From assembly GCA_900016775.1 (NCBI GenBank), contig LN890288.1:124001-188000 (forward strand): a DNA stretch of 64,000 nucleotides, read 5' to 3'. A model generated the notes under the pieces. That model was not told the origin of the DNA, did no database searches, and worked only from the letters and a program-made list of their open reading frames with translations. Shown here one piece after another: positions 45,130 to 48,436 of this stretch. How positions within the stretch are numbered: position 1 is the stretch's first letter; each line of letters starts with the position of its first letter. Both the position numbers and the translations under genes were made by a program. The stretch comes from Serratia symbiotica (lineage in GTDB: Bacteria; Pseudomonadota; Gammaproteobacteria; Enterobacterales; Enterobacteriaceae).

Positions 45130-46683
45130 TTATAAACAATTATTTTTTAGCAAATATATTTTATATTTCAAAAAACTTAATGTAAAAATATTTAATAAAA
45201 AAATAATTATCCATAATGGTATAGTACCAAAACGTGCATAAGGTGTGATTCCTGATGTAGGAATAATTTTTATTTCTAATACATCATTAGTAAATTGTGG
45301 AATTTTAGAAATAATTTCACCATTAGCATTAATTACAGCAGTTATTCCATTATTTGTACTATGTATTAAAGGACGACCTAATTCTAATGCTCTCATACTA
45401 GCCATTTGTAAATGTTGCCATGGACCAATAGAATTTCCAAACCAAGCATCATTAGATAAAGTTAATAAAAAATGAGTATCTGGTTTAAAATTATTTTGAA
45501 CGTAGTTACCTAATATAATTTCATAACAAATAGTAGTAGTTATGTTATAATTTTTAACATGTAAGGATTCTTGAATTTTATTTCCTGGATTAAATGAAGA
45601 CATCGGAAGATGAAAAATAGGTATAAATGAATGTAATAAATTTTTTAATGGTATAAATTCACCAAACATCACTAAGTGATGTTTATGATATCTATTTTTA
45701 GTTGGATAACTATAAGGTTTTTTTTCTCCTAAAATAATAGCACTATTAAAAATTTTTTCTCCTTGAGAAGTATTATTTATATCAATTATACCAGTTATAA
45801 GACTGCTATTTTTTTCACGCATTTTTTTATCAAGAACATTTAAAAAATTTTTATGAAATTTTTCATAATCTGGTATTGCTGATTCTGGCCAAATAATTAT
45901 TGATGCTTTTCCTATATAAGGAATAGTTTTATTAAAATATATTTGTAATATATCTATTAAAGATTTTTTTGACCATTTTATTAAAGGTGATATATTGCCT
46001 TGTACTATAGCAATATTTACTATTTTTTTTGGTAATAAAATAAACCAATTCCATTTACAAAAAGGCCATGGACATAATAATAATATAATAGAAAATATTA
46101 AAGATTTTATACAATATTTATTAATAGAATAAACTAATAATCCTGAAATACTCATTAATATAAAAGTAATAGCATCTACTCCTAATAATGGAGCTATACA
46201 TTTTAATGGGCCATTAATTTGAGTATACCCAAATTGTAACCAAGGAAAACCAGTAAATATCCATCCACGTAAAAATTCGGTAATGTGCCATAATGTAGGT
46301 GATAAAATTGTTAATTTAAACCAATTAACTGTAGGAGAAAAGTAAGTTAATAATCCTAAAAATAATCCACTATATAATGATAAATAAATAATAAATAATG
46401 TAATAATTAAAATATTAATTATTAAAGGTATATTACTAAAATTAGTAATACTAATATATATCCAATTTATCCCTGTTCCAAATAATCCTAATCCCCAAAA
46501 AAAACCTAAAAAAATAGATTGTATGATAGTACGATTTATACTTATTATTAATAAACCAAATAATGAAATAATAGATACCGGCCAAATATTATAAGGAGAA
46601 AATGATAATGTACCAATACTTCCGAATAAAATTGCTATAACAATATGAATTTTTTTATATTGATAGTATAAAAATTTATTCAT
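45130..46683 (-). CDS. lnt: Apolipoprotein N-acyltransferase
   Basis: Inner-membrane enzyme that adds the third acyl chain to lipoproteins such as LptE, permitting their export by Lol. About six transmembrane helices occupy the first 210 residues, then a nitrilase-fold periplasmic domain with the catalytic Glu in [12 protein letters not shown], Lys in [11 protein letters not shown] and Cys in [10 protein letters not shown], then a C-terminal helix. The length of 517 is normal (512). Its start overlaps the end of corC by 8 bp, as expected for a translationally coupled pair. Confidence 0.96.
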
Positions 46684-47563
46684 GTGAAATTATTTTTTCT
46701 AATTTAGGAATTGGAAAATTATCTGGAATATTTATATGAACTTGAATAATACGTCGACTATCAGCTATTGTAATTTTAAATATAAATTCTTCTATTTCAA
46801 TAATTTCTCCACGTGTAGGTAAACGACCAAATGCTTGCATAACTAACCCACCAATAGTATCTACTTCATCATTATTAAAATTAGTATGAAAAAATTTATT
46901 AAAATCTTCGATTAATAATAATGCATGTACAGTATAAATATTTTTATTTATTTGTCTAATATAAAAATCTTTTTTATTATCATATTCATCTTCTATTTTT
47001 CCTACAATTAATTCTAAAATATCTTCAATAGTTACTAATCCAGATATACCACCAAATTCATCAATAATTAATGCCATATGATATCGTTGTAAACGAAATT
47101 CTTTTAACATTTGATCAACACGTTTACTTTCTGGAACTATTGTTACTGGTCTTAGAATTTTATTAATATTAAATGATTCATAATTTTTTCTCATAAATGA
47201 TAAAAGATCTTTAGCCATTAATATTCCTTTAATATGATCTTTATCTTCACTAATAACTGGAAATCTTGAATGAGCTGATTTTATTATTATATCTAAACAA
47301 GTTTCAAGTTTTTGATTATATTTTAAGGTTATCATTTGAGAACGTGGAATCATAATATCACGTACACGTTGTTCAGTGATATCCATTACACCTTCTAGCA
47401 TATCTCTAGTATCTAAATCAATTAAATCATTTTGTTCAGAATCACGTATTAATTCTACAAGATCATTACGGTTTTTTGGTTCACCATGAAACAATTGATT
47501 AAGAATTAAAGTAAAAAATCCTTTTTTAGGATAATTATTACTAGATGAATAGTTATCATTCAT
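46676..47563 (-). CDS. corC: CorC/YbeX, CBS-domain protein
   Basis: Cytoplasmic partner of magnesium/cobalt transport; recent work links YbeX to ribosome maturation. It has paired CBS domains ([11 protein letters not shown] near 70, [24 protein letters not shown]) and a C-terminal CorC/HlyC domain with [20 protein letters not shown]. The length of 295 is near E. coli (292). It overlaps lnt and is preceded, 82 bp away, by ybeY, as in the enteric ybeZ-ybeY-ybeX-lnt operon. Confidence 0.95.
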
Positions 47564-47645: not shown

Positions 47646-48097
47646 TTATATTAAATATGGATTAGAATATCCTAATTTATGCATTATTTTTATTTCATAA
47701 TTTTCCATTATTTTTGCTTTACTTTTTTTAATGTGATCATATCCTAAAAGATGAAGACTACCATGTACTACCATATGTGCCCAATGTGCTTCAATTTTTT
47801 TTTTTGTTTATAAGCTTCTTTTATTACTATTTGTTTACAAATGATTAAATCACCTAATAATGGAATGGTAATATTATATAATGGTTTAAATGGAAAAGAT
47901 AATATATTAGTTGGTTTATTTTTTTTACAATAAATTAAATTTAATTTTTTACTTTCAATTTTATCTACTAAGCGTATTGTTAATATTTTATTTTTTTTAA
48001 ATTTTTTAAAAAATATAATTTTTAACCATTGATTAAACATAATTATATTTGGAATATTTTTTTTGTTTTTACAAGCAATTTGTAAATCTAATATCAT
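47646..48097 (-). CDS. ybeY: Endoribonuclease YbeY, interrupted by a frameshift at a run of 11 A
   Basis: YbeY is a metallo-endoribonuclease for 16S rRNA 3'-end maturation and ribosome quality control. From ATG at 48097 the frame follows YbeY ([38 protein letters not shown]) to A11 on the coding strand (47795-47805). There it shifts and stops at 47768. One frame over, the sequence continues exactly as expected: [20 protein letters not shown] with the H3 zinc motif [11 protein letters not shown], ending at 47646. Twelve A would give one intact 150-residue protein (E. coli 155). It may be rescued by polymerase or ribosomal slippage, or be a fresh pseudogene. ybeZ and miaB, normally upstream, are missing. 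Confidence 0.88.
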
Positions 48098-48158: not shown

Positions 48159-48230
48159 CTGGGGTACCTGGATTCGAACCAGGACATGCCGGTATCAAAA
48201 ACCGGTGCCTTACCATTTGGCTATACCCCA
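48159..48230 (-). tRNA. glnU: tRNA-Gln(UUG)
   Basis: Minus strand: acceptor TGGGGTA pairs with TACCCCA, discriminator G, a U1-A72 start as in E. coli tRNA-Gln. The anticodon stem CCGGT/ACCGG holds TTTTGAT with TTG (complement at 48196-48198). It reads CAA and CAG. No CCA is encoded. It is the last of three tRNAs co-transcribed as in the enteric metT-leuW-glnU operon. Confidence 0.95.
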
Positions 48231-48269
48231 TTAACAATTTATTTATATTAATATTGTAATAATAAATAG

Positions 48270-48351
48270 TACGGGAGACGAGAGTTGAACTCGTATACCT
48301 AAAGGTTCCAGACCCTAAATCTGGTGCGTCTACCTATTTCGCCACTCCCGT
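48270..48351 (-). tRNA. leuW: tRNA-Leu(UAG)
   Basis: Minus strand class II tRNA. Acceptor ACGGGAG pairs with CTCCCGT, discriminator A. The anticodon stem CCAGA/TCTGG has TAG (complement at 48315-48317). A short variable arm follows, and the T-loop is GAGTTCAACTC. It reads CUN codons. E. coli has G1-C72; here A1-U72. No CCA is encoded. It is the middle gene of the Met-Leu-Gln operon. Confidence 0.94.
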
Positions 48352-48362
48352 GTGAAATATAA

Positions 48363-48436
48363 AGGCTACGACAGGATTTGAACCTGTGACCTCATCATTA
48401 TGAGTAATGTGCTCTAACCAACTGAGCTACGTAGCC
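48363..48436 (-). tRNA. metT: tRNA-Met(CAU), elongator
   Basis: Minus strand: acceptor GGCTACG pairs with CGTAGCC. The first pair is G-C, unlike the mismatch of initiator tRNA. The loop CTCATAA carries CAT (complement at 48400-48402). The body closely matches E. coli elongator metT. The base after the acceptor is T, where E. coli has A73, an identity element for MetRS. No CCA is encoded. It is the first gene of the operon. Confidence 0.94.

Follow-up and report, generated by a model that had tools for sequence, protein, structure and literature searches.

A ybeY gene split at a run of 11 A, probably rescued by slippage, and recurrent poly(A) frame breaks of ybeY in insect symbionts

The ybeY locus and its A run

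In the window (the whole stretch of DNA analysed, 64,000 nucleotides), ybeY, which encodes an enzyme of ribosome maturation, lies on the minus strand in two reading frames that meet at a run of A. The features of the locus are as follows, the names of corC/ybeX and lnt having been assigned by reading their translations.

45130..46683, minus strand: lnt, in a single frame, the gene after corC/ybeX
46676..47563, minus strand: corC/ybeX, in a single frame, the next gene downstream of ybeY
47646..48097, minus strand: ybeY, whole locus, in two frames, with PF02130 and TIGR00043 matches on both pieces
47646..47804, minus strand: downstream frame of ybeY, ending in NPYLI with its stop at 47646 (PF02130, 46.4 bits, profile positions 87-129)
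47733..47765, minus strand: YbeY metal-site motif (family match), entirely 3′ of the break
47768..47770, minus strand: TAG closing the upstream frame, 5′ of the whole metal-site motif
47772..47774, minus strand: ATG in the downstream frame, just 5′ of the TAG of the upstream frame, a candidate restart site
47768..48097, minus strand: upstream open reading frame of 109 residues, YbeY as far as KEAYKQKKK and then eight out-of-frame residues (PF02130, 51.0 bits, profile positions 10-91 of 129)
47795..47805, minus strand: run of exactly 11 A, the site of the frame break, repaired by one added or re-read base or by loss of two bases
48159..48436, minus strand: genes for tRNA-Gln, tRNA-Leu and tRNA-Met, upstream of ybeY

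The neighbours (corC and lnt after the gene, and the three tRNA genes before it) are consistent with its identity as ybeY.

The initial annotation had described YbeY in one frame upstream of an 11-A run and the remainder of the protein, including a zinc motif, in the next frame downstream, and both parts of this description were borne out by profile searches. The 109-residue upstream frame and the downstream frame each gave a separate match above the cut-offs used (PF02130, 25 bits; TIGR00043, 45 bits), the TIGR00043 scores of the two pieces taken singly being 61.6 and 54.8 bits, respectively. The run was counted as exactly 11 A on the minus strand, and substitution of A12 or A9 for A11 placed both halves in a single ybeY frame, as had been proposed. 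With respect to membership of the YbeY family, a continuous single frame is absent owing to the break at A11, and the H-x3-H-x5-H motif is present in the downstream frame (47733-47765); we take it to be the metal motif of the YbeY endoribonuclease and its position to be the metal site. Apart from the break at A11, no stop or frame change was found in the rest of the gene. Two features of the slippage-rescued class, a break within a long uninterrupted A run and an otherwise intact gene, are found at this locus (A11).

Long A runs in this genome and the same site in other genomes

The genome is a single contig of 650,317 bases, and long A runs were surveyed in a 264-kb sample (the window and ten 20-kb stretches; G+C, 21.3%). 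Within open frames of 100 codons or more, this sample has 72 runs of at least A9; one is that of ybeY, and the other 71, including 20 of A10 or longer, are in frame. Selection by geometry gave 17 frame-break candidates, seven of them on A runs, and on reading these candidates only ybeY and dciA looked cut. By eye, two of the A-run candidates were rejected as gene junctions and two looked non-coding. The dciA gene is cut at an A10 (L242:11394-11499, minus strand; genome positions 356394-356499), and beyond an A12 run its tail shifts to a further frame. The first part of dciA matched PF05258 (47.3 bits), and the second part, which alone gave no Pfam match, resembles the dciA of G001, which is in one frame through the A10 region. 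Altogether, of the 23 runs of at least A10 that the sample has at genes, three are off frame (that of ybeY, and the A10 and A12 of dciA).

Ten runs of at least A11 were counted genome-wide, six of them inside genes: those of rbfA (A12), surA (A11), nadK (A12), coaA (A11) and polA (A11) are in frame and that of ybeY alone is out of frame (all six names from reading the translations). A seventh genic run of this length is the A12 at the out-of-frame tail of dciA. That the long A runs of this genome are mostly correct speaks against gross base-calling trouble, and leaves room for an error at the single run in ybeY. By far the longest A run of the genome, of 26 A, lies between two genes (L048:1501-1526; genome positions 620184-620209).

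At the site homologous to the A11 run, all 41 rows compared (40 genomes, G009 being counted twice) continue in one frame. G008 carries an in-frame A12 at this site, read as KKKI, and one extra A in the window would give KKKI too. In G001, the one genome of the same genus compared, the run at the site is shorter and ybeY stays in frame; a frame break is accordingly not common to this related genome, and is common among Buchnera (below). Sharing of the break by related genomes occurs for some slippage-rescued genes and is no requirement of the class. A scan of genome contigs for near strains returned only two Gilliamella loci and no near strain. Mean identity to the YbeY of 29 free-living bacteria was 0.474 upstream and 0.631 downstream of the break in this genome, and 0.445 and 0.601 for the corresponding upstream and downstream parts in G001. 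Since the downstream values are 0.631 here and 0.601 in G001, the part of ybeY 3′ of the break is, by this measure, decaying no faster than in the intact relative.

Frame breaks of ybeY in reduced genomes and in Buchnera

A YbeY match was kept in all 246 genomes of the family, this one included, and two separate PF02130 matches occurred in this genome only, a criterion which misses N-terminal breaks such as those seen in other genomes. Breaks were detected with a model derived from 38 intact YbeY sequences, run on all frames, and by a second placing. Sixty-eight other genomes of the family are of 1.0 Mb or less (hand count, rounded sizes); the 68 loci examined are from 67 of these and from one genome of 1.1 Mb, and G193 (ybeY masked by N) and G260 were set apart. 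The gene was split at a poly(A) run in 14 of the 68 loci (13 by the model together with the placing, and one, L098, by eye). The runs in these 14 range from A8 to A12 (A11 in L105, only A8 in L083; L120 is ambiguous, with two A9 and two T8). The breaks fall at five places on the YbeY model (about 20, 24-29, 35-45, 62-76 and 105-114, the last being that of the window), so several of them are independent. Among 38 breaks with automatic placement, 35 call for one base to be added or re-read, and three (L087, L215 and L224) for the opposite. The ybeY gene is a recurrent seat of poly(A) frame breaks in insect symbionts.

A break in G132 (L086) was rejected as a run-type split, being an in-frame TGA at the conserved W of EHWAH with no run; it adjoins a corC scattered over many frames, and ybeY is in one frame in the sister species G235. 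A second genus of six genomes (L090, L123 and L189-L192) was seen to have an out-of-frame A12 at model positions of about 26-28 in two species, the other four being in one frame there, one of them with A13.

As controls, ruvX (of similar size) and corC were scored. Frame-split ruvX was found in 2 of the 56 reduced genomes having the gene and in 1 of 36 genomes of the Buchnera genus. In the same 60 genomes, ybeY was split in 12 of 59 scorable cases as against 2 of 56 for ruvX (p = 0.0085), and in the Buchnera genus in 26 of 36 as against 1 of 36 (p = 4e-10), the species being not independent in either comparison. Counted per run of at least A9, an excess was not clear (14 of 87 for ybeY and 2 of 36 for ruvX, p = 0.15). 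The density of such runs per kb is 2.88 in ybeY, 1.52 in ruvX and 1.27 in corC, and it is because of this roughly twofold run density relative to ruvX that the excess is clear per gene but not per run. Among 32 scorable corC loci, none had a single poly(A) split; three were partial in one frame, and that of G132, in many frames, is a pseudogene. The ruvX genes of L160 and L188 (main contigs of about 0.26 Mb) were set apart from the count; each has three in-frame TGA codons, a pattern that would fit TGA coding for an amino acid.

One genus (g89, 36 genomes) is, we infer, aphid Buchnera. Its ybeY is split at one common tract in 26 of the 36 species and in frame in 10, the tract of the split genes being A10 in 23, A9 in two and A13 in one; in most species the split gene reads LYKKK and then NINIITIRIVDE. 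Split species include those taken to be the symbionts of A. pisum Tokyo (G293), S. graminum (G266) and A. kondoi (G267), and in-frame species that of U. ambrosiae (G281). A11, one base more than A10 and in frame, was found in none of the 36. All 26 split species carry a run of at least A9, as against 4 of the 10 in-frame species, the run being shorter or interrupted in the other six. Over the aligned Buchnera loci (3,814 columns), the ybeY tract is the best-kept long run, with at least 9 A in 30 of 36 species, and the next best of 26 sites has 16 of 36.

Evolutionary rates in Buchnera, relatives being where the initial annotation had proposed such a check, point to purifying selection on both halves. 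Pooled dN/dS was 0.46 upstream and 0.25 downstream of the break in split species, 0.48 and 0.30 in in-frame species, and 0.93 and 0.93 (upstream) and 0.62 and 1.66 (downstream) in wrong-frame controls. For the pair L084/L110 the upstream part alone gave dN 0.30 and dS 0.25 over 33 codons, with no constraint visible; constraint on this part is visible in the other two pairs and in the pooled data. Since constraint on either half matches that in the in-frame species, the frame-broken ybeY of Buchnera is evidently expressed through the break as one protein. On the tree of the loci, with tract columns in or out, a split ancestor requires 6 changes and an in-frame ancestor 8 (midpoint root), and with restoration of frame at double cost the numbers are 11 and 10, respectively; a split ancestral ybeY in the genus is favoured, not certain.

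Slippage, its alternatives and known systems

The ybeY of the window is likely to be a working gene read through A11 by transcriptional slippage. In such a gene the DNA would stand one base out of frame at A11, RNA polymerase would slip on the run and leave a fraction of transcripts with one additional A (or two fewer), and full-length YbeY would be translated from the slipped transcripts, the unslipped ones yielding a 109-residue protein that lacks the metal site. Three points we infer: the occurrence of slippage in this organism, its transcriptional rather than ribosomal nature, and a sufficient yield. Transcriptional slippage is favoured because out-of-frame Buchnera genes retain long, uninterrupted runs (at least A9 in 26 of 26), because three breaks are beyond minus-one ribosomal repair, and because no conserved RNA structure follows the run. 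In other genes, slippage at such runs affects 12-50% of transcripts (accessible text of PMC5009743), and insertions in runs of Buchnera transcripts rise exponentially with run length (accessible text of PMC5574713). Two observations count against the slippage explanation: PMC5574713 reports that no Buchnera reading frame was seen to be restored by transcription error, and the broken ybeY of L083 has only A8. Expression by slippage, as the initial annotation had proposed, stands as the best available mechanism, with the comparative evidence from Buchnera (26 of 36 split, both halves constrained) behind it; the reason then offered, the undamaged downstream half, does not carry it, as it fits assembly error or recent inactivation equally well. 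In one genome viewed singly, slippage would be indistinguishable from a recent mutation or an error in base calling.

If the genome truly carried 12 A (or 9), ybeY would be intact and the break an error of assembly or base calling. The evidence here comes from a single genome, such errors arise on long A runs, the homologous site of G008 reads an in-frame A12, and dciA is off frame as well (A10 and, at its tail, A12), which brings the off-frame share to the 3 of 23 given above. We nevertheless regard an error as unlikely, since the 71 other runs of at least A9, with 20 of at least A10 among them, and the other five genic A11/A12 runs are in frame, and since the same type of break is common to many Buchnera species, so that true breaks are common. 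A recent loss of function, with ybeY on its way out, would also leave a lone break with nothing else damaged, the look of a very young pseudogene, and the sole comparison within the genus (G001) reads through a shorter run in one frame; with YbeY kept in every family genome searched and broken ybeY maintained in relatives, such a loss seems very improbable.

An identical protein, including Lys-Lys-Lys-Ile, would result from minus-one ribosomal frameshifting on the run, so that proteomics alone cannot show slippage. The heptamer A-AAA-AAA lies inside the run in the right phase, and the 35 of 38 breaks that need an added or re-read base are of the minus-one class. We consider this mechanism highly improbable, as no conserved RNA structure was detected downstream (mean z of -0.34 for the 26 split Buchnera genes; +1.43 for the window), inspection by eye of the 30 upstream bases showed no Shine-Dalgarno-like stimulator, three breaks belong to the plus-one class, and each of the 26 split species of the Buchnera genus retains at least 9 uninterrupted A where A7 would suffice. 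Translation could also restart at the ATG at 47772-47774, at which both reading frames overlap, to give a split YbeY of two chains, but the second chain would be without IEAHWAH, and in most split Buchnera genes the downstream frame opens three codons ahead with no ATG there, which leaves those cases unexplained; restart is hardly credible. Weighed together, the A11-split ybeY of the window is probably real, functional and dependent on transcriptional slippage.

A wider reading would be that ybeY expression in insect endosymbionts has repeatedly been handed to slippage, that the A10 of Buchnera was selected as a limiter of YbeY dose, and that the window is an independent case. The absence of A11 from all 36 species and the retention of A10 in 23 of the 26 split species suggest the dose-limiter part. 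We think this combined reading unlikely to hold: a simpler account of the A10 is drift and rescue with a mutational preference for shorter runs, and with restoration of the frame at double cost the preference of the tree for an ancestral break is lost (11 against 10). If YbeY supply depends on slippage in lineage after lineage, annotation pipelines would miscall a needed gene as broken and gene-loss counts of reduced genomes would be biased. With an out-of-frame tract across most of its genus, Buchnera ybeY would offer a handle on slippage as crutch versus dose control, and should be checkable in RNA data of named species.

YbeY was universally kept in the 34 endosymbiont genomes of one study (accessible text of PMC11481867). 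A frameshifted ybeY has been described in Blochmannia turneri (accessible text of PMC4389277), the only mention found in the endosymbiont literature searched, outside which most subscription papers lie; recurrence of ybeY breaks and their persistence in Buchnera were not found in print within that search, which is not proof of novelty. In G147, taken to be B. turneri, ybeY is split at an A11, and the match with the published frameshift provides an outside check of the break-finding method, given that identity.

Rescue of poly(A) frameshifts by transcriptional slippage in Buchnera and Blochmannia, cited by the initial annotation as precedent, is of a known kind (accessible text of PMC5009743 and PMC3017870, citing Tamas et al. 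2008 and Wernegreen et al. 2010). As in the window, the genes concerned are conserved, lie in AT-rich reduced genomes and have a single indel in a long A run with the rest intact; they differ in lineage and in gene, and the case of the window is known from its sequence alone. B. turneri shares the gene with the window and differs in the place of the break (about 62-76 on the model, as against 105-114). Aphid Buchnera (g89) shares the gene, the class of break and the uninterrupted A run, and its break differs in lying at about model position 40, mostly at A10, in 26 of 36 species, whereas that of the window lies just 5′ of the metal-site motif. The dnaX gene of Thermus thermophilus, with A9, is alike in that its products are tied to poly(A) slippage; unlike ybeY here, for which no such role is evident, it yields two functional proteins by programme (accessible text of PMC1088944).
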